Positions 985 to 48,750 of a DNA stretch of 63,970 nucleotides are shown piece by piece. Each line of letters opens with the position of its first letter. Position 1 is the stretch's first letter. Origin of the DNA: a virus; IMG/VR virus record IMGVR_UViG_3300037297_000275, positions 1-63,970 of that record; one strand, 5' to 3'. Under the pieces are notes generated by a model. That model saw only the letters and a list, made by a program, of their open reading frames with translations. It had not been told where the DNA came from and searched no databases. A program made the translations under genes and the position numbers.

Positions 985-1413
985 ATGTGTTTATTTATTA
1001 AATCTGATCAAGATCGGAATGAAAAAGATCTTAAAAGATGGTTCGGATCTAGAACCAAATTTGCCTATGTTTATAAGATCTTGCGAACATGGCCAGAAAC
1101 ACCTTCTTATAAATCTGTTTGGTATAGTAATTTCGAGTGGGATTTCAATAAAACCAAAATATATCAAGTAATTAGACCTGCCAAGCCAACTAAAGATGAA
1201 CTAAAAATAGGCGAAATCGGAAAAGGTTTTCATGTTTATGCTTCTCTTAAAACAGCCAAAGAGGTCCGTGGTGGTAACTTATTTGAGATAGTTGTAAAGT
1301 TTCGGGTTAATAGAGAAGACATTGTTGCTATTCAAAATAATCGTACTCCGCGCTTTAACCTTACAGAGCTTGTTTGTACTAAATTGGAATTCGTAAAAGT
1401 AATAGATGACTAG
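985..1413 (+). CDS. MCL-family paralog 1 (unknown function, conserved Cys2)
   Basis: This is the first of seven paralogs in the window. All are 141-148 residues, begin Met-Cys-Leu, and share three blocks: an N-terminal DQ--N--DL--WFG-R-KF-YVYK block, a middle WDF---K-FQV-R plus G-HVYTSL--AK block, and a C-terminal VKFRV---DI-AI-N then VC-KL-FVKVIE block. The family looks related to widespread short phage/bacterial proteins that also start MCL and carry YKVL and G-HV blocks. No function is known to me. The invariant Cys2 would become N-terminal after Met removal. A GGGAGA ribosome-binding site precedes the ATG, and the gene ends with TAG. Confidence 0.8.
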   Translation: MCLFIKSDQDRNEKDLKRWFGSRTKFAYVYKILRTWPETPSYKSVWYSNFEWDFNKTKIYQVIRPAKPTKDELKIGEIGKGFHVYASLKTAKEVRGGNLFEIVVKFRVNREDIVAIQNNRTPRFNLTELVCTKLEFVKVIDD

Positions 1414-1436
1414 AAGACCTTAACCTCTTATTATGA

Positions 1437-1442
1437 TAAAAT
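1437..1442 (+). promoter_or_regulatory. Candidate -10 element of a leaderless promoter for the amidase gene
   Basis: The 35-nt gap before the amidase has no Shine-Dalgarno sequence. TAAAAT ends exactly 6 nt before ATG 1449, where a -10 box would place transcription start at or near the start codon. The same 6-nt spacing of TATAAT to an ATG lacking a ribosome-binding site occurs at 50855-50867. No convincing -35 box is present. Confidence 0.35.
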
Positions 1443-1448
1443 AGCCTT

Positions 1449-2108
1449 ATGTCTACAATTGTAATCAATCCAGGCCACGGCCTTAACAAAAACAACAAAT
1501 ATTCAAGACCATTAATAAACACAAACAATAGTAAAATAGAGATCCTTAATGATATGAAGCCAAGTCCTAAAGATTCTCTTCCAGGTTATTATAGGGAAGA
1601 CTTAGGGACTCTTATTTTAGCTAAAGAAATTAGAGAAGAACTCAAAAACAAACATACTATTCTTTTAACTAGAGAAGATGAAAGAAATTCAGCTCTTTGG
1701 TTAGGTAAAGACTGTTCTAACAAATGGAAAAAAACTTTTTGGTCTCAATCTAAATGGATAACCGATTTTACAAATAGAAACAATGCTGACATCTTTATTA
1801 GTCTTCATACGAATGCAGGAAGAGGAACAGGATGTGTTTCTTTTTGGGAATCCGCGCCAAATGGCATAATTTTTTCTGAAATGCTAACAAGAAGCATTCA
1901 TGAACAGACGGGGCTTCCAGTAAGAAAAATAGACAAACATAGATATTCTGTCTTAAGAAACAATTGTAAAGGAAGTTCTATTCTATTAGAGGCTTTGTTT
2001 CATGATGATATAGATGATATTCAGTTTATGATTAATGATGAAAAAAGAAAGATTCTAGTAAAAGCAATCTCGCAAGGGATTGATAACTACTCTCAAACAA
2101 TTCAATAA
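1449..2108 (+). CDS. N-acetylmuramoyl-L-alanine amidase (Amidase_3 type), likely endolysin
   Basis: The product (219 aa) cleaves the amide bond between MurNAc and the stem peptide in peptidoglycan. The Amidase_3 zinc site is visible in order: His10 in PGHG, Glu50 in YREDLGT, His120 in ISLHTNA, and the catalytic Glu181 in ILLEALFHD. The length matches a single catalytic domain with no separate wall-binding domain and no signal peptide, so release would need a holin or another export route. The gene has no clear Shine-Dalgarno sequence and may be read from a leaderless transcript. The next gene encodes a second wall hydrolase, making a lysis pair. Confidence 0.9.
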   Translation: MSTIVINPGHGLNKNNKYSRPLINTNNSKIEILNDMKPSPKDSLPGYYREDLGTLILAKEIREELKNKHTILLTREDERNSALWLGKDCSNKWKKTFWSQSKWITDFTNRNNADIFISLHTNAGRGTGCVSFWESAPNGIIFSEMLTRSIHEQTGLPVRKIDKHRYSVLRNNCKGSSILLEALFHDDIDDIQFMINDEKRKILVKAISQGIDNYSQTIQ

Positions 2109-2130
2109 ATAACATATAGAGGTGATATAA

Positions 2131-2874
2131 GTGAAAGTTCTTTTAGCAACTGCACTTACTGCAGTTTTTTTATATTTTGGTTATTCCCAAATTCCACAGG
2201 AAATTAAATTAGAAACCTTTAACAATACAACAAGAAATATCTATAACAATTATGAGATTATACCTATTATTAAAGAAGACTATAAGAAACTTAAGAAAGA
2301 GAAGAAAATCAGAGAGATAGAAGAAACATGGACGGTAATCTTCGATGAAGCTGGTGCTTCGCCTGATGATGATAGAAGAATGTATTTCCGACTTTATGCT
2401 GAAACTATTGTTGAGATTTTAGAAGAGTTTCAAAATAAAGATAGTAAAACAGTTAAAATAACAGGAGTAGAATTACCCAAAAATGAACTCATTCATATAT
2501 TAATTGCCTACATTGTTTATAGAGAATCTTCTGTAAACCCAACAGTAGTTGGTAAAAAACCTAGAAGAGAGGTTGGGTTAATGCAGGCTTGGGGAAGAGC
2601 CTTAATGGGTTTTTCTAGAGAAGAAGTTAGAAAAGATTTTGAATTAGGTTTATTTTTAGGTATACATTGGCTTGGAACAATGATACAAGAATGTAAGATA
2701 GATGTTGATTCTATGCAAACTATAAATAGTTGGAAAGGGCCTTTGTCTTTATATGGCGCGGGGCCAAAAAGAGCTATTAAAAATGGTAGATGTTTAACAA
2801 ATTTTAGATTTGCAAACAGAAGAATAAAGAAAACAAAAGAACTAGCAAGATTAGTAAAGAAAGAGATTCTATAA
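2131..2874 (+). CDS. Lytic transglycosylase (SLT-like) with N-terminal membrane segment
   Basis: This 247-aa protein likely cleaves the glycan strand. An N-terminal hydrophobic stretch (about residues 2-18) could be a signal peptide or anchor. The C-terminal half has the SLT pattern: YRESSVNP around 130-137 with Glu132 as candidate catalytic acid, then EVGLMQAWG around 147-155, and a late SLYGAGPKRA block. The central part is charged and probably helical. The start is GTG at 2131, preceded by AGAGGTGAT. It lies 22 nt after the amidase and abuts the next gene. It could act in lysis or as a virion-associated wall enzyme. Confidence 0.8.
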   Translation: MKVLLATALTAVFLYFGYSQIPQEIKLETFNNTTRNIYNNYEIIPIIKEDYKKLKKEKKIREIEETWTVIFDEAGASPDDDRRMYFRLYAETIVEILEEFQNKDSKTVKITGVELPKNELIHILIAYIVYRESSVNPTVVGKKPRREVGLMQAWGRALMGFSREEVRKDFELGLFLGIHWLGTMIQECKIDVDSMQTINSWKGPLSLYGAGPKRAIKNGRCLTNFRFANRRIKKTKELARLVKKEIL

Positions 2875-3690
2875 ATGATTAAATTACCCAATAAGAAGAC
2901 AGAAGAAGAAATAAAGTTGTATAAAGAGTACGGTCCTTTATTTGGAGAAATGCTTAAAGAACTAAGAGATAAGATTCTTACAAGAGAAATTAATAATAGT
3001 GAAGAATTATTAATAGATCTTCCTAGCAGAGTTAATGAATGGGATTATTGTTTTTTATGGCAAGAAAATGAATATCGAGAAAAATTTAAATATCCATTCT
3101 GTCTTTCTATTAATGATACTATAGGTCATGGAATTCCAGATATTGAATCAAAAGATCCATATACTTTTAAAGATACTGATATTATTTCTATAGATATAGG
3201 AATCTTTCATAAACCTAGTTGTCTTCATTTTGACGCAGCTTTTACAGTTTGTAAAGATCCTCAAAAACAATCTTTTGTAAACGCGCCATTAGATACAATT
3301 AAGCTTCTAAGTAGACATAAAAATATTAAAACAACAAAAGACATCAGTCAGATAATCTACTATGTCCCAGACGATTATGGTTATGATATTGTAGCTTCAA
3401 TAGCAGGACATGGAATTGGACATTCTCTTCATGAGCCGCCAAAAATATATAATATTCCAATAAATAAGAATAATTATCAACTTTTTGACGGAATAGTTTT
3501 TTGTATAGAGCCGGTTTATGTAGAAAAAGAAAAAAATGATTCTAAAGTAAAAATAGTAGATGCTTATATAGACAATAAAGATAATTGGTCTATTAAAACA
3601 GTAAATGGTAAATCTTCTACACACTGGGAGACTATGTTTTTAGTAGAAGATAATAAATTAGTAGATCTGTTAAAAATATCAGAGTGGTAA
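2875..3690 (+). CDS. map: Methionine aminopeptidase (MetAP)
   Basis: The product (271 aa) removes the initiator Met from nascent proteins whose second residue is small (Gly, Ala, Ser, Cys, Thr, Pro, Val). The type I pita-bread active site is complete: His85 in TIGHGIPD, Asp107 in SIDIGIF, Asp120 in FDAAFT, His179 in AGHGIG, His186 in SLHEPP, Glu212 in CIEPVY and Glu252 in HWETMF. Residues 1-60 and 217-245 are divergent for the family. The ATG follows the transglycosylase stop codon directly. With the deformylase at 28570 the phage carries both steps of N-terminal Met processing. All seven MCL-family proteins have Cys at position 2, a permissive residue. Confidence 0.93.
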   Translation: MIKLPNKKTEEEIKLYKEYGPLFGEMLKELRDKILTREINNSEELLIDLPSRVNEWDYCFLWQENEYREKFKYPFCLSINDTIGHGIPDIESKDPYTFKDTDIISIDIGIFHKPSCLHFDAAFTVCKDPQKQSFVNAPLDTIKLLSRHKNIKTTKDISQIIYYVPDDYGYDIVASIAGHGIGHSLHEPPKIYNIPINKNNYQLFDGIVFCIEPVYVEKEKNDSKVKIVDAYIDNKDNWSIKTVNGKSSTHWETMFLVEDNKLVDLLKISEW

Positions 3691-3709
3691 GGAAATAAAA
3701 GGAGAGGAA

Positions 3710-4519
3710 ATGAAAACAAAGTATTTAAGAGACGGTAAAAAAGTAGCAGTTATTTCACAAATCAATGAAACTGAATTTATAGTTCAAGAAATCCTAGTTT
3801 CAGGTGAGAAAGAATTTCCTTCAGGTAAGAACTTTGTCGCAAACAACTTACTTGACGAACCTATTGAAACTTGGGAAGATAGAAGAATCAAGGAATTACA
3901 ACATAGATATAACCAAGTAAAAGCGCATCTAGAAAGCGAAACTAATATTTTAACAAAAGAATCTAGTGTTGTAAGAGAAAAGCTATCTTATCTTAAGAAA
4001 ACTTCTAAAAACCTAAATAAAGAAGCCTTAAATAAGCTTACCAGATATTTAACAGGAACTTATAAATATATAGTGCAAGGCGGATATAGTATTCAAATTC
4101 TAACTAAAGAAGATTGGAAAGAGAAAGAAGTTTGTAAAGGCTATCCTGAACTCCGATTGGTTTCTATTTTTGGTAGAGATGACGGAACGTTTACTTTTGG
4201 TTTAGGAGAGTATTATGACGCATCTGGTTCATCTACTTCTTTTATGCCGTGCAATACATTAAAAGAAGCTATTAGTTATGCGCAGAAACTAGTAAATAAA
4301 GAAAAGAATTATCATGAATCACATCTAGAGCTAGAAAAAGAGTATGAAATAAAACTAGATCCTACCAAAAAGAAAAGATTTTTAATGAGAAAAAAAGCAG
4401 ATCTAGAAAGTTCTATAGAGAGAAAAGAAAATTATATTAAAGATTATAATAAAGACAAAGAAGAATATAAACAAAAATTAGATGAGATTGTCAGTCAACT
4501 AGAAACTTTAACATCCTAA
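3710..4519 (+). CDS. Coiled-coil protein of unknown function
   Basis: The product is 269 residues and I do not recognise it. Residues 1-55 look like a small beta domain. Residues about 58-115 and 198-269 are strongly charged and heptad-like, suggesting two coiled-coil arms flanking a central globular part that contains a GRDDGTFTFGLGEYYDASG stretch. GGAGAGG lies 5 nt upstream of the start. It is probably structural or a DNA-metabolism accessory, but nothing visible decides this. Confidence 0.7.
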   Translation: MKTKYLRDGKKVAVISQINETEFIVQEILVSGEKEFPSGKNFVANNLLDEPIETWEDRRIKELQHRYNQVKAHLESETNILTKESSVVREKLSYLKKTSKNLNKEALNKLTRYLTGTYKYIVQGGYSIQILTKEDWKEKEVCKGYPELRLVSIFGRDDGTFTFGLGEYYDASGSSTSFMPCNTLKEAISYAQKLVNKEKNYHESHLELEKEYEIKLDPTKKKRFLMRKKADLESSIERKENYIKDYNKDKEEYKQKLDEIVSQLETLTS

Positions 4520-4545
4520 ATATATTTAGGAAATTAGGAGGAAAA

Positions 4546-4893
4546 ATGTTTGTAAAGAATGTAAAGATAAAGAAGCATGAATCTGGTAAGCTTCGAGGTT
4601 TTGCTTCGGTCGACTTCGCTTTCCGTAAGGATGGAGATGTTGCTGTAACAATTCCAGGTTGGAAGTTGTTTGCCGATAATGATGGAACTATTCAAGTTAG
4701 CGCTCCATCAATAAAAGACTCGAAAGGAAATTGGCAGAATACTTTGTTCTTTTATACCAAAAAGAATGATGATGCTATTAAGTTCTTAGAATATATTTCT
4801 GGAGAAGTAAGAGTTTATTATAATGCCATGACAAAAGAAGAAACAAAACCAGACAAAGAGCCTCAAATATTAGGTGACGATATACCTTTCTAG
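4546..4893 (+). CDS. SpoVG-like protein with SSB-type acidic C-terminal tip; candidate ssDNA-binding protein
   Basis: The product is 115 residues. The core resembles SpoVG: KNVKIKKHESGKLRGFASV, then APSIKDSKGNWQNTLFF, matching the SpoVG pattern of a short beta sheet followed by 'PS----G---D---P'. The protein ends GDDIPF, nearly the same as the DDDIPF tip with which bacterial SSB recruits DNA-repair and replication proteins. SpoVG proteins bind nucleic acid. I infer a phage ssDNA-binding or SSB-mimicking protein. A strong AGGAGG site precedes the start. The nucleotide-metabolism and replication genes are nearby rather than adjacent. Confidence 0.65.
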   Translation: MFVKNVKIKKHESGKLRGFASVDFAFRKDGDVAVTIPGWKLFADNDGTIQVSAPSIKDSKGNWQNTLFFYTKKNDDAIKFLEYISGEVRVYYNAMTKEETKPDKEPQILGDDIPF

Positions 4894-4901
4894 GAGATAA
4901 A

Positions 4902-5633
4902 ATGAAAGATATGTATCTAGGATTGCCTTTAGACACATGGAAAGAGAATTGTGACTTAGCTCAAGATCTTCTTTTAGAAGAGAATCTTGGACAACATGTT
5001 CTTGGAATCTATCCATATGGAAAAAGGATTTATGGATATGAATCAGAGAAGCTAGAACTTTTCTGTATCTATCTAGATTCTGTAGAGACAATTCTAGATC
5101 CATATACTGACGATAAAATCTATATTCCTATTGAGATTAATCCATCTTCTACCTCTACAATTTTCTTTCAAGAATTGAGAGGTTGGGTTTCTTGGACCGG
5201 AGGTTCAGTAGTTTCAGAGGATCATATAATTCCATGTTTTTATGATCATCTTTATGAAGACGAATCTCTTACCGAGATTATTACTTTTCTTCAAGAACTA
5301 ATTTTACGATATAAGAAATATATTCCACAATCAGATTGCTTCCTAGACTGGAGAGCCGCATATATCTTTAATAAACTAAAGAGATATGAACCAAATGTTA
5401 ATCCTGAATGGGGAGATGTTTTTGACTTCTCAGGGCTAAATTTTTCACATCCTCAAGCTCTTCATAAAATTGAAGAAAAAATACTAAAAGAAAAAGCTAG
5501 TTATACATCAAATATAATAAAAGCAATATTCCTTGATGAGATTAAAGAGTTAAAGAAAGAGGAAGAAGGAGAATTTGATATTAGAAATCAGATTTCTAAA
5601 TTAGTAATAAATCTTTATAGAGTATTAGTATAA
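4902..5633 (+). CDS. Unknown protein, possibly a degenerate nucleotidyltransferase-fold domain
   Basis: The product is 243 residues. Residues about 33-60 (GIYPYGKRIYGYESEKLELFC as a shape) recall the GS-x-YG----SDxDL start of pol-beta-type nucleotidyltransferases, followed by a second strand and a Cys/His-containing helical part. The acidic pair that binds metal in that family is not evident, since the SDxD position reads SEKLEL. If the fold is right, the enzyme is inactive or divergent. GGAGA lies 7 nt upstream. The assignment is weak. Confidence 0.45.
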   Translation: MKDMYLGLPLDTWKENCDLAQDLLLEENLGQHVLGIYPYGKRIYGYESEKLELFCIYLDSVETILDPYTDDKIYIPIEINPSSTSTIFFQELRGWVSWTGGSVVSEDHIIPCFYDHLYEDESLTEIITFLQELILRYKKYIPQSDCFLDWRAAYIFNKLKRYEPNVNPEWGDVFDFSGLNFSHPQALHKIEEKILKEKASYTSNIIKAIFLDEIKELKKEEEGEFDIRNQISKLVINLYRVLV

Positions 5634-5643
5634 GAGAGAAAAA

Positions 5644-6174
5644 ATGATTGTACATTTGATTGGATCTCCCTGTTCTGGAAAAAGTACTCTAATAAAAGAA
5701 CTTAAAAAAGAACATGATGATATAAGCAGCTGGGATATATTAGAAGATTTTTATATTCCTCTTGAAATCACAAAGAATGGAATATTTAATACTAGCTTAT
5801 ATTATAAACACCAACTTTCCATTGATACTATCCTGAAAATAGCAATCAATAAGGCTGCACAAAAAAAACATCTCTTTATTTTAGAATCAAGTGGATGTAA
5901 TAAACTTATTAATAGATATATTAAAATATCTCAACAAGATGTTTTTCCAGTTATATTAAAAATTCCATCAGAACAAGAAACTAGACTTCGAGTAATCGCC
6001 CAACTAAAATCAGTAGAACCATCACTTCAGATAAGAGACCTATTTCTTCAAAAACTTCCTTATTTATTAGATTCTCTTTCTAATAAATATAAAGATAATG
6101 ATTTAATACCAAAAGAACCTATAAATTTGGATCTGGCAAAAGAAAGAATAAACCAATTGTTTACTAAGAAGTAA
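5644..6174 (+). CDS. P-loop kinase-like NTPase
   Basis: The 176-aa product begins MIVHLIGSPCSGKSTL, a Walker A loop (GSPCSGKST, residues 7-15) directly after the first strand, as in nucleoside/nucleotide kinases. A central strand LFILESSGC could supply a Walker B-like acidic residue, and an Arg-rich lid may follow around residues 118-135. The size fits a small nucleoside or RNA 5'-kinase, but the substrate cannot be read. The gene follows the previous one by 10 nt. Confidence 0.7.
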   Translation: MIVHLIGSPCSGKSTLIKELKKEHDDISSWDILEDFYIPLEITKNGIFNTSLYYKHQLSIDTILKIAINKAAQKKHLFILESSGCNKLINRYIKISQQDVFPVILKIPSEQETRLRVIAQLKSVEPSLQIRDLFLQKLPYLLDSLSNKYKDNDLIPKEPINLDLAKERINQLFTKK

Positions 6175-6178
6175 GAAT

Positions 6179-6604
6179 ATGTGTTTGTTAATTAGCTTAG
6201 ATCAAGAAGAAAACGAAAGAGATCTAAAGAAGTGGTTTGGGAATAGAACCAAATTTACTTATGTTTACAAAGTTTTAAAAAAACAACAAAACGAAGATTT
6301 TTATAGATCTTGGTTTCATAACGGTTTTATCTGGGATTTTAGAAAAGGAAAAGTCTTTCAGGTGAATAGAGATTCAGAACCAACTGAAGAAGAATTAACA
6401 AACAGAGAAATTAATAAAGGGCTTCATGTCTACACTGGTTTGGAAAAAGCTAAAAGATCTAAAGGTTTTTTTAGCACAATCGTAAAATTCAGAGTTGAGA
6501 AAAAAGATATTGTTGCTGTTGAAAATTATTATGACAACCCAGAATATAACTTTAAAGAAGCAGTCTGCAGGAAATTAACTTTTGTTAAGGTCATAGAAGA
6601 CTAA
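6179..6604 (+). CDS. MCL-family paralog 2
   Basis: This 141-residue paralog starts MCLLISLDQEENERDLKKWFG and has all the family blocks described for the copy at 985, including GLHVYT and a terminal VCRKLTFVKVIED. It is adjacent to paralog 3, and the pair looks like a tandem duplication. It begins 4 nt after the kinase-like gene with only a weak ribosome-binding site. Confidence 0.8.
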   Translation: MCLLISLDQEENERDLKKWFGNRTKFTYVYKVLKKQQNEDFYRSWFHNGFIWDFRKGKVFQVNRDSEPTEEELTNREINKGLHVYTGLEKAKRSKGFFSTIVKFRVEKKDIVAVENYYDNPEYNFKEAVCRKLTFVKVIED

Positions 6605-6615
6605 GGAGTAAGAAT

Positions 6616-7044
6616 ATGTGCCTATATATTAAAAAAGATCAAGGAAAAAACGATAGGGATCTAAATCAGTGGTTTGGTAATAGAAAGAAATTTGCTTATG
6701 TCTACAAGATTCTAATAAAAAATAAAAAAGAAAGTTTCTATCGATCTTATTATTATAATAATTTTATTTGGGATTTTTCTAAAGAAAAAGTATTTGAAGT
6801 CTATAGAGACCTCAAACCAACTATCTTTGAACTAGGTAACGAAAGTATAGATTGGGGACTCCATGTATATACTTCTTTAAAAGAAGCTAAAGATATCTGT
6901 AGTAGCTTAGCCGAGGCAATTATAAAATTTCGTGTTAAAAAAGAAGACATCATTGCTATCGAAAATGGTTGGTATCGGAAAGAAGATAATTTCAAACAAG
7001 CAGTTTGTACCAAATTAACCTTTGTTAAGGTTATAGAAGATTAA
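6616..7044 (+). CDS. MCL-family paralog 3
   Basis: This 142-residue paralog starts MCLYIKKDQGKNDRDLNQWFG and shares the core and the terminal VCTKLTFVKVIED. AAGGAG precedes the start. It lies 11 nt after paralog 2 and is most like it in the C-terminal block, consistent with local duplication. Confidence 0.8.
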   Translation: MCLYIKKDQGKNDRDLNQWFGNRKKFAYVYKILIKNKKESFYRSYYYNNFIWDFSKEKVFEVYRDLKPTIFELGNESIDWGLHVYTSLKEAKDICSSLAEAIIKFRVKKEDIIAIENGWYRKEDNFKQAVCTKLTFVKVIED

Positions 7045-7052
7045 GGGAAAAA

Positions 7053-7475
7053 ATGAAAAGATACGAAGCTAATTATTTAAAAGATGTAAAACAAATAGAA
7101 CAACCAGAACAGAGACCAAAGAAGTGGGGAAATGAGTTAATCTTGGTTAATAAAGATTATACCTCTAAAGTAATGATCTTATATCCTGATATGCAAGTGT
7201 CTCTTCATTTTCATGCCGAAAAATCAGAAAGTTTTTTTCTTCTTGAAGGTCAACTAATTGTAGAGACTGTTAATCTAGCAACTGGTGAAACAACAAGAAC
7301 TTTATTGCAAAATAAGTTTGATTGTATTAGTATAGAGAAGATGGTTCCTCATACATTCTATTGTCCTGAGGGCCAAGAAGAAAATACTGTTTTTATAGAA
7401 GTCAGCACAACGGATTACATTAATGATAGCTTCAGACTTACCCAAAGTGGCGATATTAGGAGATCTTCTAATTGA
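7053..7475 (+). CDS. Cupin-domain protein, sugar-phosphate isomerase-like
   Basis: This 140-residue single-domain cupin has two motifs: SLHFHAEKSESFFLLEG (metal-ligand His, His and Glu) and VPHTFYCPEG (fourth His). The KKWGNELILVN start and the ending FIEVSTTDY resemble the cupin of type II phosphomannose isomerase/ManC C-terminal domains and stand-alone cupins found in capsule and LPS operons. It overlaps the HldA-like kinase by 53 nt, so a role in sugar supply is likely. It could feed mannose-6-phosphate towards the GDP-mannose dehydratase at 48751. The actual substrate is uncertain. Confidence 0.7.
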   Translation: MKRYEANYLKDVKQIEQPEQRPKKWGNELILVNKDYTSKVMILYPDMQVSLHFHAEKSESFFLLEGQLIVETVNLATGETTRTLLQNKFDCISIEKMVPHTFYCPEGQEENTVFIEVSTTDYINDSFRLTQSGDIRRSSN

Positions 7476-8319
7476 CGAAACATGGTTTGTCCAAACCCCA
7501 AAACTTTCTCCGGAGGCTCCCGTCCCAATAGCAAGAATACTGGAGAAAGAACCTCTTATATCTCCTGGAGGAGCAGGGCTAGCCGCGACATATGCCATCA
7601 AGAAGAATATTCCGTCTATATTAGTTTCTTGTGTTTCAGAAGAATATAAAGATCTACTCTTAAGTAAAAAGATAAAGGTAGAGAATTTGGGACAAACAGA
7701 GAATGTAAAAAAGATCAGATATCTTGATGTTGAATCAAATTATCATTTAATCAGAGTAGATACAGATGAAATTACAAATACATCAATTCAAACAAAGAAT
7801 ATTATTCCAAAATTAGAACATCTTATTCTTAGAGAGAATATTCCTGTTGTTGCTTTTCTAGATTATAGAAAAGGATTATTTAGAGATAGAAGCTTAGTTA
7901 AAAAAATAATAAAACTATGCGAAGACAAACGAGTTTCTACTTACGTTGATAGTAGAGGATCTATATCAAAATTTGTGGGTATTGATGTCATAAAAATTAA
8001 CTTAAAAGAATTTTACAATCTACAGAAGGAGATTAATGAAGATCCACAAGAAATTCTTAAACAGACAGAAGCAAAAATGTTAATTGTAACAAAGGGGAAA
8101 GAAGGAGCAACTTTATACAGAAAAGACGAAAAGTCACTTACGTGTAAAGTAAAGAAAGTTTCTGGTATTGCAGATGTAACTGGTTGTGGAGATGTATTTG
8201 ATATAAATTTTTGTTATTATAATTTTATAAAAAAATATTCTCCAGAAGACTCGCTTAAACTTTCTGTTGACGCTGCGAGTTTATATGCTTATACTACTAT
8301 GAATGAGAAACTATGTTAA
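7423..8319 (+). CDS. hldA: D-glycero-D-manno-heptose-7-phosphate kinase (HldA-like, PfkB family)
   Basis: The product (298 aa) matches the kinase half of HldE. It begins VAILGDLLIDETWFVQTPKL, followed by SPEAPVPIARI and PGGAG (residues about 29-52), the signature region of the heptose kinase. The C-terminal PfkB motif DVTGCGDVFD carries the catalytic Asp. It would phosphorylate heptose 7-phosphate at C1. The nucleotidyltransferase and phosphatase for the following steps are fused in the gene at 38414, so the phage splits HldE and adds GmhB. No heptose epimerase (HldD) or isomerase (GmhA) is visible in the window. It overlaps both neighbours. Confidence 0.85.
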   Translation: MIASDLPKVAILGDLLIDETWFVQTPKLSPEAPVPIARILEKEPLISPGGAGLAATYAIKKNIPSILVSCVSEEYKDLLLSKKIKVENLGQTENVKKIRYLDVESNYHLIRVDTDEITNTSIQTKNIIPKLEHLILRENIPVVAFLDYRKGLFRDRSLVKKIIKLCEDKRVSTYVDSRGSISKFVGIDVIKINLKEFYNLQKEINEDPQEILKQTEAKMLIVTKGKEGATLYRKDEKSLTCKVKKVSGIADVTGCGDVFDINFCYYNFIKKYSPEDSLKLSVDAASLYAYTTMNEKLC

Positions 8320-8510
8320 CTTTAGCTGAAAGATTAGACGCGATAGAACAACAACTATCTTTGATTAAAAGAAGTATTGACACAAATCCTTCTCTTGAAG
8401 AAGTTGAATCAACAAGAGAAGAAATTTTTAACGCTCTTAATAACAATAGAATAGCAATTGAATCTCTTAAAAAAGCAGTTGCAGGATTAGACAAAACCAT
8501 CAGGAGATAA
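8313..8510 (+). CDS. Short coiled-coil protein of unknown function
   Basis: The product is 65 residues, almost wholly helical and heptad-like (LAERLDAIEQQLSLIKRSID and onwards), with no Cys or Trp. It overlaps the stop of the kinase gene by 7 nt and is followed 4 nt later by a zinc-ribbon gene. It is probably a small oligomerising protein. Confidence 0.55.
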   Translation: MLTLAERLDAIEQQLSLIKRSIDTNPSLEEVESTREEIFNALNNNRIAIESLKKAVAGLDKTIRR

Positions 8511-8514
8511 TAAA

Positions 8515-8778
8515 ATGAGCCGATGTGCCCATGCACAATCTACTTATAGATTAACAAAAATGCCAACTTGCAGAAAATGCAAACAGCCTTTATATCTAAC
8601 TGCAGTGGCCGCCAAAACAAAAAAAGGATATGTTTTTGAATGGGAGTGTACAAGGTGTAATAAATCAATTCCCTACCATTTAATACAAGAACCAGAATTT
8701 AGTGAAGAAGATAGGATATTACATGAATGGTGCAAACAAAATAATTCCAACTTATCAACTATTAGAAGAAACAATTAA
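8515..8778 (+). CDS. Small zinc-ribbon protein
   Basis: The product is 87 residues. CRKC (about 19-22) and CTRC (about 45-48) form a four-Cys zinc ribbon. An extra Cys and His near the N-terminus (SRCAHAQSTYRL) may add to it. GGAGA precedes the start. Such ribbons bind nucleic acid or protein; the role is unknown. The 3' end overlaps the next gene. Confidence 0.65.
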   Translation: MSRCAHAQSTYRLTKMPTCRKCKQPLYLTAVAAKTKKGYVFEWECTRCNKSIPYHLIQEPEFSEEDRILHEWCKQNNSNLSTIRRNN

Positions 8779-8989
8779 CAAACTAAGTAGTTTCGGTAAA
8801 AAAGAAATTTTAGAATTTCTATGTACTTTAACATACTCAATTGGTTCTTCATTTGAAAATGTAGGAACATTGTCTTCTGAAGAAGTACTTTTACTTTATT
8901 CAAAAAACCCAACAATTGGAAATGCGCTTATGACCCAAGCTCTTTGGATGAGAGATTTATGGCAAGAAAGGAACAATGAAAATGAATAA
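8723..8989 (+). CDS. Small helical protein of unknown function
   Basis: The product is 88 residues from ATG 8723; an in-frame GTG at 8702 is a weaker alternative. It is mostly helical with a GKKEILEFLCTLTYSIGSSF stretch and ends NNENE. I do not recognise it. It overlaps the zinc-ribbon gene by 56 nt and the Whirly-like gene by a few bases, suggesting coupled translation. Confidence 0.5.
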   Translation: MNGANKIIPTYQLLEETINKLSSFGKKEILEFLCTLTYSIGSSFENVGTLSSEEVLLLYSKNPTIGNALMTQALWMRDLWQERNNENE

Positions 8990-9473
8990 TAATCAACGAC
9001 CGCTACAATATAAGATTTACAAGGGAATAAAAGGAAAGTTTGGGGCAATCAGATTTGGCCTTTTGCCCGCATATGTCAATAGCGGAAATAACAACAAACC
9101 AGAAGGAGCCGTATTTGTAGAAGCAGCTCCAACAATAGGAGTAAATAATTACGACTGGGAAAACAGTAAAATTGTTTTTGCTCTTAAAGTTACAGATATT
9201 GGTAAGATTCTGTCTTTTCTAAAGACAAAAAACGAATCAAATCTAATACTATTACATGATACTGGTCTTAGTAAAGGGCAGCCTCAAGGAGAATTAGTAA
9301 CAATTCTTAATATTTCGCGGCCAAATGAAACAATGAAATCATTTTGGGTGAACATGAGCCAAAAAGAACAAGGATCTGTTAAAAATGAAGTAAAAATTCC
9401 AATCTCTATTGATGAAATGTTTGTAATTTATACTCTACTGGAAGCTGCCATTCCTAGAATCCTTGCTTGGTAA
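8982..9473 (+). CDS. Whirly-type single-stranded DNA-binding protein
   Basis: The product is 163 residues. The layout follows plant Whirly proteins closely: an N-terminal YKGIKGKFGAIRF block in the place of the plant KGKAAL motif, then IGVNNYDWENSKIVFALKV-TDIG, LLHDTGLSKG, a G-V--L strand, FWVNMSQKE, and IPISIDEMFV followed by AIPRILAW in place of the plant 'PYLLGW'. Whirly proteins form tetramers that bind ssDNA without sequence preference. I infer that this is a replication or recombination ssDNA-binding protein. AAAGGAA at 8967-8973 favours ATG 8982 over the in-frame ATG at 8976. Confidence 0.75.
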   Translation: MNNNQRPLQYKIYKGIKGKFGAIRFGLLPAYVNSGNNNKPEGAVFVEAAPTIGVNNYDWENSKIVFALKVTDIGKILSFLKTKNESNLILLHDTGLSKGQPQGELVTILNISRPNETMKSFWVNMSQKEQGSVKNEVKIPISIDEMFVIYTLLEAAIPRILAW

Positions 9474-9508
9474 CAAATAGTAAATATTAGAAAGAAAGGA
9501 AAAAGAAA

Positions 9509-9955
9509 ATGTGTTTATTTATTAAACCAGATCAAGAAGAGAACGAAGAAGACCTAAGAAGATGGTTTAAGTCTCATCATAAATGGTTTGGAGTTCATAA
9601 AGGTTTTGCCTATGTTTATAAAGTATTAGTAAAAAAGCCAAATGAAGATTTTTACAGATCTCCTCGTTTTCCAGATTATAAATGGGATTTTAATAACCAA
9701 AAGGTTTTTCAAGTGAGGAGAAGTCATAAGCCAACTCAAGAAGAACTAGAGAATAGAAGTATAGAGATAGGTCTTCATGTATATACTCATTTAGAATCTA
9801 TGAAGCCTTACCTAGACTCTAATGAAGTAGTTGTAAAATTCAGAGTTAGAAAAGAAAATATTGTTGCTATTGAAAACAATTATAAAGTAAAGAAATATAA
9901 CTTCGAAGAAGCTGTATGTACCAAATTAGAATTTGTTAAAGTTATTGAAAATTAA
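9509..9955 (+). CDS. MCL-family paralog 4 (with local insertion)
   Basis: At 148 residues this is the longest family member. It differs by a small insertion in the first block: RRWFKSHHKWFGVHKGFAYV contains a second WF where other copies have one, which looks like an internal duplication of about six residues. Other blocks are intact, including GLHVYT and VCTKLEFVKVIEN. AAGGAAAAAG precedes the start. Confidence 0.8.
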   Translation: MCLFIKPDQEENEEDLRRWFKSHHKWFGVHKGFAYVYKVLVKKPNEDFYRSPRFPDYKWDFNNQKVFQVRRSHKPTQEELENRSIEIGLHVYTHLESMKPYLDSNEVVVKFRVRKENIVAIENNYKVKKYNFEEAVCTKLEFVKVIEN

Positions 9956-9966
9956 AGGAAAAAGAA

Positions 9967-10398
9967 ATGTGTTTATGGATTCAACCAGATCAAGATCAAA
10001 ACGAGAAAGACTTAAAGAAGTGGTTCGGTAATAGAAAAAAATTCGCATACGTTTATAAGGTATTAAGAAAATGGTCATGTGAGTCTTTTTACAGATCTCT
10101 TCTCTATGGTAATTTTAAGTGGGACTTTGAAAAACAGAAAGAATTTCAAGTCGATAGAGATCTCAAACTTACTAAAAGCGAATTACTTTCAGAACAAATC
10201 AACAAAGGTTTTCACGTTTATACTAGTCTTAAATTAGCTAAATCATGGATCTCTAATGAGCCAAACTCAGTAATAGTAAAATTTAAAGTTAGAAAAGAAA
10301 ATATTATTGCTATTCAAAATAGTTCGTTTATTTCAGAAAAATATCGTTTTAAAGAATTAGTTTGTACTAGATTAGAATTTGTCAAGGTAATTGAATAA
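9967..10398 (+). CDS. MCL-family paralog 5
   Basis: This 143-residue paralog starts MCLWIQPDQDQNEKDLKKWFG. It follows paralog 4 by 11 nt, the same spacing as between paralogs 2 and 3. All family blocks are present, with GFHVYTSLKLAK and a terminal VCTRLEFVKVIE. Its stop overlaps the next start by one base. Confidence 0.8.
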   Translation: MCLWIQPDQDQNEKDLKKWFGNRKKFAYVYKVLRKWSCESFYRSLLYGNFKWDFEKQKEFQVDRDLKLTKSELLSEQINKGFHVYTSLKLAKSWISNEPNSVIVKFKVRKENIIAIQNSSFISEKYRFKELVCTRLEFVKVIE

Positions 10399-10877
10399 TG
10401 TTAATTTTTGCCTTTCCTACTTTAGGTAAATCTCAAAAAAAACTTCTAGCTGATATTTGTGAGTGGTTTAAAAAAGAAATTGATAAAGAAATTATACTAT
10501 GGGATGTTTTTTACGAAGAAAGAGAGATTCTTCCAGAGGACGTTTTAGTCGTCTTTGGCAACCGCGCCTATAATCAAATAAAAAAAGATGTTGAGAATAA
10601 AATTTTTAAAGCAAGAAGCTTTCAAAAGATGATTTCTGATCCTGAATGTAAAAGAGATACTCTAGAAACCCTCCAGGAAGCCCTAGAATGGATTAAGACA
10701 GAAGAAGAGACAAAGATGATAGTAAGTAAAGAGAATGTAGAAATTGGCCTTGGAGGCCAAATACAGCTCTCTGAGAAAGAAGTAGAATATCTATCAAATC
10801 TTAAAAATATACTAGGAGGAGGAGATATTATTATTACAAAAGGTGACTTAACTATAGAAATAAAAAATAAGGAGTAA
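10398..10877 (+). CDS. Unknown alpha/beta protein
   Basis: The product is 159 residues. The first half looks like an alternating strand/helix domain (MLIFAFPTLGKSQKKLLADI, then DVLVVFGNRAYNQIKKD). The second half is acidic and helical with a Gly-rich turn and a short beta end. I do not recognise the family. The gene is sandwiched between two MCL-family genes with 1-nt overlap and 3-nt spacing, so it is co-expressed with them. Confidence 0.55.
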   Translation: MLIFAFPTLGKSQKKLLADICEWFKKEIDKEIILWDVFYEEREILPEDVLVVFGNRAYNQIKKDVENKIFKARSFQKMISDPECKRDTLETLQEALEWIKTEEETKMIVSKENVEIGLGGQIQLSEKEVEYLSNLKNILGGGDIIITKGDLTIEIKNKE

Positions 10878-10880
10878 AAA

Positions 10881-11306
10881 ATGTGTTTGTTAATCAATCC
10901 AGATCAAAGCCAAAATAAAAAAGACCTAGATCATTGGTTTGGGTCTCGTAAAAAGTTTGCTTATGTCTATAAATTCCTAAGAAAAACAACTAAATTACCT
11001 GGAAACCTTGGCCAATCAATAGTATATAAGTCTCCATACTTTGAGTTTTTTAAATGGAACTTTAGAAAACAAAAGATCTTTCAAGTAAAAAGATCTTATA
11101 AAGTTACCGAAGATGAACTTGATTTAGGAAGGATTTGTGTGGGGCTTCATGTATGTACTTCTCTCAAAGAAGCCAAAAGAAAGAAATATCCTAGTGATAT
11201 AATTGTAAAATTTAAGGTTTTAAAAAAAGATATAGTTGCTGTAGATAATAGTTGTCGTGAAGCTTTTTGTAGAAAGTTAACGTTTGTTAAGGTTTTAGAG
11301 GATTAA
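10881..11306 (+). CDS. MCL-family paralog 6
   Basis: This 141-residue paralog starts MCLLINPDQSQNKKDLDHWFG. It has an insertion after the first block (TTKLPGNLGQSIVYKS) and a shortened penultimate block (AVDNSCREAFCRKLTFVKV), making it the most divergent copy. AAGGAG precedes the start. Confidence 0.8.
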   Translation: MCLLINPDQSQNKKDLDHWFGSRKKFAYVYKFLRKTTKLPGNLGQSIVYKSPYFEFFKWNFRKQKIFQVKRSYKVTEDELDLGRICVGLHVCTSLKEAKRKKYPSDIIVKFKVLKKDIVAVDNSCREAFCRKLTFVKVLED

Positions 11307-11316
11307 GGAAAAACAA

Positions 11317-11553
11317 ATGGAACTGTATTATTGTTTTGAAGAGAATCTTACTAGGTGGGTAATCCGTGTCTGGTCAGAACTTGATAAAGCTGGTTGGATT
11401 CTAAAAGAATGGAATAAAAAACCATCAAAGAAAACAATAGATGAAACAATTGAGTTACTCCAGTGTTCTCTAAAAATTATTTTAGAATTACAAAAACAAA
11501 AAATAGAAAAAGAGCATAATTGCACTCTAAACTATAAAACTTTATTTCGATAA
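11317..11553 (+). CDS. Small protein of unknown function
   Basis: The product is 78 residues, Trp-rich in its first half (three Trp within residues 13-32) and helical after residue 38. AAGGAAAA precedes the start. No family recognised. A 77-nt gap follows before the next gene. Confidence 0.5.
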   Translation: MELYYCFEENLTRWVIRVWSELDKAGWILKEWNKKPSKKTIDETIELLQCSLKIILELQKQKIEKEHNCTLNYKTLFR

Positions 11554-11630
11554 TAAAAATTCCTATATAGAGCGAATTTAGTAAAAAAATTTTTTGAGCG
11601 TTTTGCTTTTTAAGTAAAAAGTGAGGTTTT
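11554..11630 (+). other. Short A+T-rich intergenic gap with a weak hairpin
   Basis: This 77-nt gap holds AAAAAATTTTTT around 11585-11596 and a weak inverted repeat CTTTTT-AAGT-AAAAAG near 11609-11624. The stem is A/T only with no following T-run, so it is not a convincing terminator. It may simply be a leader for the gene at 11631. Confidence 0.25.
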
Positions 11631-11900
11631 ATGTTTAAAAAAGATGATCTGGTTTGGTATCTTTCTGGTAATATTATTGTCGCAGAGGCCAAGATTATAA
11701 AAGCAATTTTCTTTATTCAAACAAACCCTGTTCAATACGAAATTGAAATAAAATGTCCTGATGATCATCATTTTACTCGCAAGGCTTATCATTTTGACTT
11801 ATATAAAAGACCAAAAGAAAGAGAATATCTAGTTTCTAAACTAGAAGCAAATTTAGAAGAAGTTAAACTTCAAATTAGAAAGGTTAAGAACAATGAATAG
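11631..11900 (+). CDS. Small beta-rich protein with helical tail, unknown
   Basis: The product is 89 residues. The start MFKKDDLVWYLSG and the alternating hydrophobic pattern to residue 60 suggest a small SH3-like barrel, followed by a charged helix. GTGAGG is upstream. It overlaps the next gene by 8 nt. Function unknown. Confidence 0.5.
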   Translation: MFKKDDLVWYLSGNIIVAEAKIIKAIFFIQTNPVQYEIEIKCPDDHHFTRKAYHFDLYKRPKEREYLVSKLEANLEEVKLQIRKVKNNE

Positions 11901-12165
11901 AACAGCAAAAGAAATACTAGACGCTCTTGATGATGGGAAAGGAATCTCTGATAAAGAACTTCTTTATCTAGGGGCTCTATATCAACTAATTGATACTTCT
12001 ACAAGAAAGCTACCAGGATTTGAACTAGCAAGCTTTAAAGCTGCAATGGAACTATATAGTTTAGAAAGTATATTTTCTGCGCGGCAAAGAGAAAAATCTA
12101 ATTTTGAATCTCTCTATAAAATTGATGCAATTAAAGTAATAAAAGAATATGAAAAAGATATTTGA
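11893..12165 (+). CDS. Small helical protein of unknown function
   Basis: The product is 90 residues, helical, starting MNRTAKEILDALDDGKGISD and ending EYEKDI. I see no motif. It overlaps the start of the RNA-ligase fragment by 17 nt, so the genes are translationally linked. Confidence 0.5.
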   Translation: MNRTAKEILDALDDGKGISDKELLYLGALYQLIDTSTRKLPGFELASFKAAMELYSLESIFSARQREKSNFESLYKIDAIKVIKEYEKDI

Positions 12166-12337
12166 AAACAATATTGTAAAATATCCAAGAACTTATCATT
12201 TACCTTGGTCACAAGACAAAACTAATGACGATAAATCTTTAAAAGATGTTTCTTGTTTTATAGATAAAGAAGTTGTTGTATCTAAAAAACTAGATGGAGA
12301 AAATACTACACTTTTTATATGCACGCAAGAAGTCTAG
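12149..12337 (+). CDS. RNA ligase, N-terminal fragment (frameshifted)
   Basis: These 62 residues begin the Rnl2-type RNA ligase seen in many phages: KYPRTYHLPWS, then the nucleotidyl-transfer motif KKLDGENTT, whose Lys would be adenylylated. The frame then leaves the ligase and stops at TAG 12335-12337. The rest of the enzyme continues in the -1 frame from about 12316. The junction is CTTTTTATATG at 12311-12321. A -1 slip on the T-run, or one extra T, would join TTLF-YM-HARSLDS. The frameshift may be programmed, a mutation or an assembly error. Confidence 0.7.
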   Translation: MKKIFENNIVKYPRTYHLPWSQDKTNDDKSLKDVSCFIDKEVVVSKKLDGENTTLFICTQEV

Positions 12338-12792
12338 ACAGCAAAACTCATCCAAGTCAAACTTGGGTAAAAAACTTTTGGAACCAAATCAAAAACAATA
12401 TTCCTAGTAGATGGCGGATCTGTGGAGAAAATCTATATGCAAAACATTCTATTTTTTATGAAGATCTCGATTCTTATTTTTATGGTTTTTCTATCTGGAA
12501 TGACAAGAACATTTGTTTGTCATGGGATGAAACTTTAGAATGGTTTGAGCTTTTAGGAGTTACTCCTGTTCCTGTCTTGTATATTGGAAAATTCAAAAAA
12601 GAAAACATAAAAAATCTCACTAATAAATTAGATCTTAATAAAGACGAAGGATATGTTGTAAGACTAAAAGGATCTTTTAGTTATATTGATTTTAAAAACA
12701 GTGTTGCTAAATTTGTAAGAGAGAAACATGTACAAACAGATAAACATTGGAAAACCTCTAAAATAATAAAGAATAAATTAAAGGAGAAATAA
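12319..12792 (+). CDS. RNA ligase, C-terminal fragment (frameshifted)
   Basis: These 157 residues start MHARSLDS and continue with the family's later motifs: RICGENLYAKHSI, GFSIWNDKN, LSWDETLEWFELLG, DEGYVVRL (motif IV) and SVAKFVREKHVQTD (motif V with the second Lys). The fragment lacks the active-site KxDG, which is in the fragment at 12149. ATG 12319 sits exactly at the frame junction, so independent re-initiation could yield a two-chain enzyme, but it has no good ribosome-binding site. The codons are intact throughout, arguing against long-standing decay. Confidence 0.7.
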   Translation: MHARSLDSKTHPSQTWVKNFWNQIKNNIPSRWRICGENLYAKHSIFYEDLDSYFYGFSIWNDKNICLSWDETLEWFELLGVTPVPVLYIGKFKKENIKNLTNKLDLNKDEGYVVRLKGSFSYIDFKNSVAKFVREKHVQTDKHWKTSKIIKNKLKEK

Positions 12793-12793
12793 A

Positions 12794-13219
12794 ATGTGTT
12801 TGCGTATTAAGTCGGATCAAATCCAAAACGAAAAAGATTTAAATCGTTGGTTTGGTTCTCGTAAAAAGTTCGCCTATGTTTATAAAGTTCTGAGAAAATG
12901 GGATGATGAAGATTTTTATAGATCTCTCTGGCATCCTGAATTCATTTGGGATTTTTCAAAACAGAAAGTATATCAAATAGATAGGGTTTCGGGACTAACT
13001 AAAGATGAACTAGACAGAAAGGTTGTTAATGAAGGATTTCATGTTTATACTTCTCTTGAAATAGCTACATTTAATTGTGGTTCTTGTTTTGAAAAAATCG
13101 CAAAATTTCGCGTTAAGAGAGAAGATGTTGTCGCTATTGAGAATAATTATAACAACAAAGAACTTAATCTTAAAGAATTAGTTTGTACCAAATTAGAATT
13201 TGTTAGAATAGTAGACTAA
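12794..13219 (+). CDS. MCL-family paralog 7
   Basis: This 141-residue paralog starts MCLRIKSDQIQNEKDLNRWFG, with GFHVYTSLEIA and a terminal VCTKLEFVRIVD. AAGGAG lies upstream within the ligase 3' end. It is the last copy in the window and stands directly before the reductase module. Confidence 0.8.
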   Translation: MCLRIKSDQIQNEKDLNRWFGSRKKFAYVYKVLRKWDDEDFYRSLWHPEFIWDFSKQKVYQIDRVSGLTKDELDRKVVNEGFHVYTSLEIATFNCGSCFEKIAKFRVKREDVVAIENNYNNKELNLKELVCTKLEFVRIVD

Positions 13220-28028: not shown

Positions 28029-28577
28029 ATGAAGGTTAACTATATTAGAAAATGTGGGCCAAAATATATTTCTGGAACAATTAAAGCAACCTCTGGAGGA
28101 CAGATAACTTCTCTAAAGCCAATTTCTACCAGGCTATGGAGTTCTCTATTGAACACTGCAGGAGGAGTTCCTCATTCTCCAATAAGAGCTGTTGAATACA
28201 GACTCTTTATTTATGATGTTCCCTCTTGGGTCGCAACTCATTATTCTAGACATCATATCGGTTCTCAGCCTTATATCTTTTCACAAAGAGATGATAGGAA
28301 TAATAATCTTATCCCCCGCGCCGAAGAGAAACAAGGTAAACTTATAAATATGGTTCTGGATCTAAATGTAAACGCAATCTTAAACATTGCAAAAGCAAGA
28401 CTCTGTAATAAAGCAGCAAAAGAAACAAGAGAAGTCTTTAAACAATTTAAAGATCAACTTGCTAAATCAACAGACGAATATGACCAAATATTAGCTTCTT
28501 ATATGAGACCACCTTGTGAATGGTATCAGAAATGTTTTGAGATAACCCCTTGTGCTATGGAGAAGTCAAATGAGTAG
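28029..28577 (+). CDS. ThyX-like protein (phage subgroup; possible flavin-dependent thymidylate synthase)
   Basis: The product is 182 residues. VPSWVATHYSRHHIGSQPYI followed by SQRDDRN resembles the ThyX signature (RHRx7S), here as RHH with one extra residue, and ARLCNKAAKETREV matches the later helix of ThyX-like phage proteins. A C-terminal pair of Cys (PPCEWYQKCFEITPC) is present. With dCMP deaminase it would complete dCMP to dTMP. The changed signature means catalytic activity is uncertain. ATG 28029 is preferred to an upstream in-frame codon that overlaps the zinc-ribbon gene. Confidence 0.6.
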   Translation: MKVNYIRKCGPKYISGTIKATSGGQITSLKPISTRLWSSLLNTAGGVPHSPIRAVEYRLFIYDVPSWVATHYSRHHIGSQPYIFSQRDDRNNNLIPRAEEKQGKLINMVLDLNVNAILNIAKARLCNKAAKETREVFKQFKDQLAKSTDEYDQILASYMRPPCEWYQKCFEITPCAMEKSNE

Positions 28578-29112
28578 ATTAATTATTTATCCGAATAAAC
28601 TTTTGTTGTCAGAACAAGTTCCTATAGATCTAGAAGAGATAGAGAAAGATCCACCTTTTAAAGAGTTTGTCACATTTGTAATAAATGAGATGAAATCTAT
28701 AGTAAAAGAATATAATGCAAACGGGATTGCCGCGCCACAGATAGGATATAAATTACCTATTATTTATATAGATTCTGGAATTTATAAACAAATTATGATT
28801 AATCCTAGAATTGTTAATTCTTCTGGTTCTGATTTAAGAAGAGAAGGTTGTTTAAGTTTCTTGGGAGCAGAAATAGAAATCAAGAGAGCAACTGAAGTTC
28901 TTGTCAACTACATAGACAAAGATTTTAAAGAACAAATTGAAATATTTCAAGATCTTGAAGCCCGCATAATACAACATGAGATAGATCATCTAAATGGAAT
29001 TACCATTGCACAAAGAACCAGTAAAGTATACAGAGCTAAGTTAATGAGAGAACTAACTAAGAGAAAAAGACAATTTAAAAATTTAGTAAAAACAAATAAG
29101 AGTTCTGAATAG
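28570..29112 (+). CDS. def: Peptide deformylase
   Basis: The product is 180 residues and removes the formyl group from initiator Met. All three motifs are present: NGIAAPQIG (motif I), EGCLSF (motif II with metal-ligand Cys) and QHEIDHLNG (motif III, HExxH). Unlike minimal phage deformylases it keeps a C-terminal helical tail rich in Lys/Arg. ATG 28570 follows GGAGAAG. It pairs functionally with the MetAP at 2875, and the overlap with the ThyX-like gene is 8 nt. Confidence 0.93.
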   Translation: MSRLIIYPNKLLLSEQVPIDLEEIEKDPPFKEFVTFVINEMKSIVKEYNANGIAAPQIGYKLPIIYIDSGIYKQIMINPRIVNSSGSDLRREGCLSFLGAEIEIKRATEVLVNYIDKDFKEQIEIFQDLEARIIQHEIDHLNGITIAQRTSKVYRAKLMRELTKRKRQFKNLVKTNKSSE

Positions 29113-33700: not shown

Positions 33701-34016
33701 TGGTAAGTTAGATGCAACTATTTTTCCAAAGACCTGGGAAAAAGTTAAAGAGAAAGCAAAAGAAGACCGAATCTTTATTGCTGATGCCAGAGTTGGACTG
33801 ATACAACAAGACGATAGTCCTCCAATCGTTAAACTTATTATAAATAATCTTATTAACCCATCTTTTGTAAAGAAAGAGCTATCTCCTATTAAAGTTCATC
33901 TTTCTGACTGTATTGTTGAGTTTATCCCATCTGAGACCACTAGTGAATCTCAGTGGGTGCAGGCCAATAAATACAAAGAGATAATTGAAACCAACTCTAA
34001 AAGTTTACTTAACTGA
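30750..34016 (+). CDS. dnaE: DNA polymerase III alpha subunit-like replicative polymerase (DnaE)
   Basis: This is the uninterrupted 1088-residue part of a C-family replicative polymerase. It begins within the PHP domain (AVTDHGRAGG) and contains the remaining PHP blocks, the polymerase palm (PGRGSSSASLVCYSL, then the LPDIDYDADRNRR catalytic Asp pair with FDFLGLKTL later), the fingers, AYGFCLGHACAYSFLSYWTG, helix-hairpin-helix and a C-terminal OB-fold nucleic-acid-binding part (IIVSSLKTKCSKKKQNYATL). No clear beta-clamp motif is assigned. The first PHP block lies upstream of an in-frame TAG. A proofreading exonuclease is encoded 10 nt downstream. Confidence 0.92.
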   Translation: MSAVAVTDHGRAGGLLKLQKECKKADIKPIYGIELYVAPESRFTKERLENYSKTSYHLTVFAKNKEGLKNIFRLTSRSWQDGLYYGKPRCDIELLKEHSEGLVVLSGCGSGHIAVNILEDKYSQALKHAKVLKEIFKDNFYIEIQNHNLSWQLGLNNCLELVSEEINIPLVITQDAHYQNKEDHVLHNHVCKITSGDLIFDSNQNWFKSRGEMEEMFDPKYYPALDITNEIASKCNVEWDHSRTIWPVYKISTNKSAEGELKSLAQAGLCKRFPNNITKEYQNRLDYELEVIKEMGFSNYFLIVQDFANWCEQNNFTPSPGRGSSSASLVCYSLRITHVDPIKYKLPFSRFLNKSRVSLPDIDYDADRNRRNELLKYIMSKYGSDKVAQIGTYAEFKPRGSLRAFARVLGYSPSVQDYLASLIPGDIAGKTQKFNEILEKSKDLLNTKYPEVVDLARKSEGLKMQMGIHAAGVVISDDPVNEIIPLFAGRNGETASQFDMKDIEDIGLVKFDFLGLKTLSIISDTRNFIKETTGKEINLLSLEDGDPKTYKLFHNGDLDGIFQFETSAGFKELCMQVKPNKIEDLSACTAIYRPGPLSSGVAETYIKRRQGEKYKLDIPELEEILKDTYGLIVFQEQISRICIAVAGYSDTEADNMRRIVGKKIPEKMKAEKEKFISGCIKNGTDKSLANKLFEEIEGFAAYGFCLGHACAYSFLSYWTGWLKAHYPVEFYTAILNNCENQDDIIKYIYAIRTKEIPLVPPDVNRSYSKFTIDNGTIVFGLSGIKGLGEKACSSLVEKRPSEGFTSLADLVINKIPKNNIEALAECGALEGISSLGRHQIVENIEELIAIQKRKLKWEEGIKKREVRNKEIKEAVERGDKPPRRLPKMKEENKPVDLVLPEPEEMSRKERLRLERKTLGFYLTGHPLDDYSKVLSNYKYQIKDLQAGEVKDKEKIHLPIIVSSLKTKCSKKKQNYATLLVEDQTGKLDATIFPKTWEKVKEKAKEDRIFIADARVGLIQQDDSPPIVKLIINNLINPSFVKKELSPIKVHLSDCIVEFIPSETTSESQWVQANKYKEIIETNSKSLLN

Positions 34017-47873: not shown

Positions 47874-47885
47874 AGAAAACAAATC

Positions 47886-48743: not shown

Positions 48744-48750
48744 GAGAAAA

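Follow-up and report, generated by a model that had tools for sequence, protein, structure and literature searches.

Seven small Met-Cys-Leu proteins of a phage as stand-alone, paralog-expanded relatives of the RIIB C-terminal domain with a predicted ADP-ribosyltransferase-like fold

The rIIB gene of bacteriophage T4 stands among the genes on which molecular genetics was founded, and the biochemistry of its product is still unclear. In RIIB proteins a C-terminal domain is fused behind an N-terminal part containing a helix-turn-helix (HTH), and the gene usually occurs once per genome beside rIIA. In several phage subfamilies, divergent RIIA and RIIB proteins act against lambda RexAB, although the specificity of the interaction is unclear (PMC11879866), and RIIB has elsewhere been treated as a transcription regulator (PMC7824862). 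Here we describe seven genes of IMG/VR record IMGVR_UViG_3300037297_000275 whose products very probably represent the RIIB C-terminal domain as a free-standing protein. The window analyzed is the complete record, 63,970 bp from a virus of bacteria; its completeness as a genome is not stated, and it may be a fragment. In contrast to RIIB, the window proteins start with Met-Cys-Leu and occur in seven copies, with 17 full copies in a second IMG/VR contig of 120,530 bp (G001), and RIIA was undetected.

A first-pass annotation of the window had described seven dispersed paralogs of 141-148 residues, and all seven were confirmed as intact open reading frames (ORFs) opening with Met-Cys-Leu (Table 1). 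The proteins aligned end to end and shared 40 invariant columns, among them M1, C2, and L3; identity to the first copy was 51-59%. Hidden Markov model (HMM) E-values of about 1e-61 or better exclude chance for the membership of the seven ORFs in the family. Together the genes occupy 3,015 bp, amounting to 4.7% of the whole record and, within 985-13219, to 25%; the family had been said to take up a large share of a phage genome, and that share is uncertain for a record that may be partial. The two tandem pairs with identical 11-nt spacing are likewise real, but the spacing is ordinary, being a stop codon that abuts the Shine-Dalgarno of the downstream gene, and a third such spacer separates two G001 copies (85253-85263). 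Upstream of the copies only individual Shine-Dalgarno sites were seen, with no conserved promoter or mobile cassette.

Structure prediction and profile comparison grouped the family with the RIIB C-terminal domain. An AlphaFold2 model of copy 5, built on a 24-row family alignment, had a predicted local distance difference test score (pLDDT) of 93.8 and a predicted template modeling score of 0.88. Foldseek comparison with viral models (BFVD) gave E-values down to 4.8e-5 at probability 1.00; the named matches included RIIB lysis inhibitors and membrane integrity protectors, with DUF7666 proteins lower down, and several annotated RIIB proteins were matched at probability 1.00 with E-values of 7e-4 to 7e-3. 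When hhalign compared the 24-row family with C-terminal domains taken from 13 RIIB proteins, of T4 and of diverse other phages, the probability was 92.5, the E-value 4.9e-7, and the score 44.1, while column-shuffled controls scored at most 18.7. The matched part of T4 RIIB comprised about residues 211-290. The family and RIIB had several landmarks in common: the first strand carried an aromatic residue followed by Lys, and beyond it came Gly-Leu/Phe-His-Val and V-x-V-x-x-x-(D/N)-(V/I)-(V/I). With respect to the phage RIIB domain the common features read Tyr/Trp-Lys on strand 1, Gly-Leu-His-Val, and V-x-V-x-P/K-x-D-V-V, and the profile similarity covered this core from strand 1 through GLHV to DVV. 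Four of the seven window members also matched phrog_36818, "RIIB lysis inhibitor," weakly (best E 0.0018). The full length of RIIB, about 300 residues or more, was left unmatched by these much shorter proteins. Members of DUF7666 (PF24703) matched the window model by fold (probability 0.84-0.98), and a single-copy relative of the family, L076, showed a weak match to DUF7666 (E 0.039), but the window proteins did not match the Pfam model. We consider homology to the RIIB C-terminal domain well supported, with the seven genes as its stand-alone, paralog-expanded form.

The models further point to a fold like that of ADP-ribosyltransferases (ARTs), an assignment that we regard as fairly well supported and likely. 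Among solved structures, the matches of the window-copy model with a Foldseek probability of 0.09 or more were IcmQ, CNFy, and TreTu. The model of L076, computed separately (pLDDT 93.1), matched Arr (0.51), ParT (0.33), Tpt1 (0.25), PARP14 (0.23), and Arr-2 (0.21), followed at 0.09 or more by BC2332, PARP15, CNFy, and PARP1. We take all 19 chains matched by L076 at or above this threshold to be ART-fold proteins, and the C-terminal domain of IcmQ, domain 4 of CNFy, and BC2332 are presumably ART-like. Arr, ParT, Tpt1, and the IcmQ domain are thus consistent but weak structural matches, without sequence similarity to the family. No link between RIIB and the ART fold was found in the literature searched, though one may exist.

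Y30, K31, W52, G81, and C133 were constant in the family, and H83 was nearly so (23 of 24). The canonical R/H - ST/Y - E catalytic set was not conserved, and at the position of the third ART motif E, Q, R, or S precedes VC, so that no mono-ART activity of the classical kind is predicted; the proteins might bind a ligand and not catalyze, or use chemistry like that of Arr or Tpt1. The copies might be active noncanonical ADP-ribosyltransferases, or NAD+-using enzymes resembling Tpt1 or Arr, with several host proteins or RNAs as their substrates and with the constant Lys and His replacing the classical residues. Arr and Tpt1, among the nearest solved folds of L076, do without the classical Glu triad and rely on different residues, and both K31 and H83 recur in L076, in a second large-phage relative (L088), and in most of the RIIB domains compared. 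The third motif, however, offers no constant acidic residue, and the fold matches are not significant singly, and we hold such enzymatic activity to be unlikely.

The first-pass annotation had proposed selection for dosage or diversity. Over pairs with a defined value, the median nonsynonymous divergence (dN) was 0.40 and the median synonymous divergence (dS) was 1.29, which is near saturation, and the overall codon-model omega was 0.147. The longest exact DNA run common to any two copies was 27 nt. The copies are thus old and individually under purifying selection, without recent gene conversion. The overall omega of about 0.15, although taken at near-saturated dS, gives no support to selection for diversity. 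Dosage would mean that the copies are small nucleotide-binding or structural proteins, numerous and nearly interchangeable, without target specialization, and the strong purifying selection on the common core of all copies agrees with it. Dosage would, on the other hand, favor recent near-identical copies or stronger expression, and the copies are only 51-61% identical, with no homogenizing conversion. We judge dosage improbable; copies that are old, constrained, and unhomogenized favor separate retained roles over dosage alone.

The Met-Cys start was found in seven of seven family members and in none of the 72 other non-overlapping window ORFs of at least 80 aa. Synonymous codons alternate at positions 2 (TGT/TGC) and 3 (TTA/TTG/CTA), and hence the constraint is on the protein and not on the start-site DNA. 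Cys2 had been described as invariant, which holds for the window; among the 17 full copies of G001 two begin MSIEI (Ser2) and MPLSI (Pro2), making Cys2 near-invariant, at 22 of 24 full copies, and replaceable in two. Cys, Ser, and Pro are small residues that normally permit removal of the initiator Met. The window also encodes a type I methionine aminopeptidase (MetAP) and a peptide deformylase (PDF) (Table 1), and we infer a link of these genes to the seven-copy family. With both enzymes encoded by the phage, exposure of Cys2 is plausible from sequence. Neither MetAP nor PDF was detected in the G001 record.

The conserved Cys2 and the two window enzymes would suit a catalytic or crosslinking N-terminal nucleophile, as in HMCES/YedK or the N-terminal nucleophile (Ntn) hydrolases, an idea raised by the first-pass annotation; the phage deformylase and aminopeptidase would then expose the Cys. 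The exceptional Ser and Pro, which likewise allow Met removal, can be counted in its favor. Yet Cys2 can be replaced, the window enzymes have no detected counterpart in G001, and the annotated homolog, RIIB, carries the domain C-terminally without an equivalent of Cys2, so that an existing annotation unconnected with N-terminal cysteine chemistry does share the domain. In both models the N-terminus forms a short ordered strand, and since Cys2 opens this strand, it is most likely packed against the sheet. HMCES/YedK (SRAP) yielded no Pfam match and no structure among the listed PDB matches of the two confident models, and no Ntn hydrolase fold was among the listed matches of the window and L076 models; the viral-model search likewise listed neither fold. 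A nucleophilic Cys2 of either kind is in our view decidedly improbable. What stands is a near-invariant Cys2 in a phage equipped with PDF and MetAP, which could expose it.

G001 was the one other IMG/VR contig found with close family members. Its copies lie at 72-118 kb, mostly singly between unrelated genes, and include, beyond the full copies, one fragment and one copy with an internal deletion. In the latter (84995-85252; L034, G001:76001-96000), which adjoins an intact copy, residues ~17-71 are deleted in frame, and this is decay of an individual copy. The copy-rich region of G001 at 95-115 kb (L035) has a GC content of 31%, compared with 32% in the window and 36-39% over G001's initial 77 kb, hinting at transfer of this region. 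Outside the family, the window and G001 shared few weak short-ORF matches (blastp, E 1e-4), some of them within family genes. The star-like tree did not cluster the window copies by genome (7 changes, against a mean of 6.3 after shuffling), which suggests an old pool of copies common to both phages, although a single origin of the window copies was not rejected (approximately unbiased test, p 0.09). Seven and 17 diverged copies in two otherwise unrelated viral records likewise suggest a shared tool set, exchangeable between phages.

A DNA-pattern scan for a Shine-Dalgarno, Met-Cys-Leu, and then Tyr-Lys, followed by HMM search, recovered divergent phage proteins built to this plan (L052, L066, L068, L076, L081, and L088); because the pattern required Met-Cys, this start in them gives no independent support for Cys2. 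L076 and L088, single copies in IMG/VR records of 197 kb and 174 kb, respectively, from large phages, are secure members (hhalign probability 97.7, score 76); they share Met-Cys-Leu, YK, W, GFH, and DIVA with the family but lack Cys133. L068 and L081 are plausible members (hhalign 45, score 30 versus 17). For L052 and L066 a direct two-sequence profile link failed, and they are tied to the family only through phrog_13450, phage proteins of unknown function whose match starts at residue 1 and extends through Gly-x-His (E 3.4e-5 for the G001 copies, ~1e-3 for the window copies). The phrog_13450 match covers only the N-terminal two thirds of the family protein, and L052 and L066, which resemble phrog_13450 more strongly, end in an IPKGT-YY-G block that the family does not have. 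The paralog expansion is real and constrained, and larger in G001 than in the window.

Other searches returned no relatives. Pfam and NCBIfam scans of the window family proteins gave nothing credible, and a profile search of PDB sequences gave chance-level matches only (procarboxypeptidase, ACE). In INPHARED, tblastn with the window, G001, and relative proteins found no match, nor did a consensus-like query, which served as a lead only. No relative was confirmed in 84,980 bacterial and archaeal genomes, and IMG/VR scans with the helicase and DNA polymerase III alpha found no near kin of the window phage.

By analogy with RIIA/RIIB acting against RexAB, each copy may be a small host-takeover or counter-defence protein. 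Constant in the ART-like fold would be the Tyr-Lys pair Y30-K31 of the first core strand and the Gly-x-His of G81 and H83, joined in this family by Cys133, and the ART-like pocket would bind a nucleotide of the NAD+ or ADP-ribose type or act as a protein-binding scaffold. Variable loops at about residues 34-50, 88-100, and 118-130 could direct each copy to a different host target, and Cys2 may become the N-terminus once the protein is deformylated and Met removed. We infer the ligand, the target, and the counter-defence role of the copies. Rather than DNA-crosslinking enzymes, the seven proteins are probably related tools with which the phage disarms host defences. We put forward counter-defence or host takeover by target-diversified ART-like binding proteins tentatively, with slightly less than even confidence, and the combined reading, of stand-alone paralogs with the RIIB C-terminal domain and ART fold that serve either role, seems to us evenly poised.

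Several observations weigh against this combined reading. The family had no HTH match in Pfam at cut-off, while T4 RIIB does show HTH matches. Neither record, both possibly fragments, matched full RIIB or the RIIA-RIIB family phrog_609, which spans the fused RIIA-RIIB length, so the RIIA partner of the classical RII system is either lacking here or encoded outside these fragments. Judged by E-value, none of the solved-structure Foldseek matches was significant (the best values were 0.32 and 0.77, with TM-scores about 0.3-0.44), and the ART assignment thus depends on consistency among weak matches; the third ART motif has no constant glutamate, and the connection of RIIB to ARTs is indirect, via the stand-alone family. 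The counter-defence role is drawn from distant homology, and no known anti-defence gene was identified beside the family copies.

On this reading, the window presents the RIIB C-terminal domain as a heavily amplified ART-like module in single-domain proteins of ~140 aa, and such a module makes NAD+ or ADP-ribose chemistry or binding a directly testable hypothesis. A wider proposal, which we consider doubtful, would unite RIIB with a broad class of small Met-Cys-Leu phage proteins in one noncanonical ART-fold clade, from which some phages have built up 7-17 counter-defence factors that handle NAD+ or ADP-ribose and differ in target. Were it true, T4 rIIB, whose biochemical role has long been unsolved, would act in the binding or transfer of NAD+ or ADP-ribose.

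Table 1. Family copies, intergenic spacers, and N-terminal processing genes in the window
Feature	Coordinates	Strand	Basis
Copy 1, 142 aa, MCLFIK...	985..1413	+	ORF; HMM E 2.6e-71
Type I methionine aminopeptidase, among family copies	2875..3690	+	PF00557 2.3e-16; TIGR00500 2.9e-32 (below curated cut-off); five metal-ligand motifs by eye
Copy 2, 141 aa, leads first tandem pair	6179..6604	+	ORF; HMM E 2.8e-72
11-nt spacer, Shine-Dalgarno inside, abutted by preceding stop codon	6605..6615	+	sequence
Copy 3, 142 aa, trails first tandem pair	6616..7044	+	ORF; HMM E 2.4e-72
Copy 4, 148 aa, 7-residue insertion near residue 18, leads second tandem pair	9509..9955	+	ORF; alignment
11-nt spacer bearing Shine-Dalgarno	9956..9966	+	sequence
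Copy 5, 143 aa, used for structure model (pLDDT 93.8)	9967..10398	+	ORF; structure model
Copy 6, 141 aa	10881..11306	+	ORF; HMM E 1.2e-61
Copy 7, 141 aa, RNA ligase gene immediately before	12794..13219	+	ORF; HMM E 5.4e-72
Peptide deformylase, first N-terminal processing step	28552..29112	+	PF01327 4.7e-33

Copy 7 begins 1 nt after the RNA ligase gene (12149-12792), which consists of two overlapping ORFs (12149-12337 and 12319-12792; PF09414 on the second part, 1.1e-25), and this split suggests a frameshift or a sequencing error. The ribonucleotide reductase ORF at 13461-17336 (1291 aa) appears by eye to have two intein-like insertions. The phage also encodes a bacterial-type DNA polymerase III alpha (30750-34016), the best INPHARED relatives of which are about 35% identical. 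A sugar-nucleotide/glycan set was recognized by eye at 7053-8319, 38414-39463, and 45906-54200, comprising a cupin isomerase, an ADP-heptose-type kinase/nucleotidyltransferase/phosphatase, a glycosyltransferase of family 9, a GDP-mannose dehydratase, and a DegT aminotransferase, and perhaps serves host surface modification.

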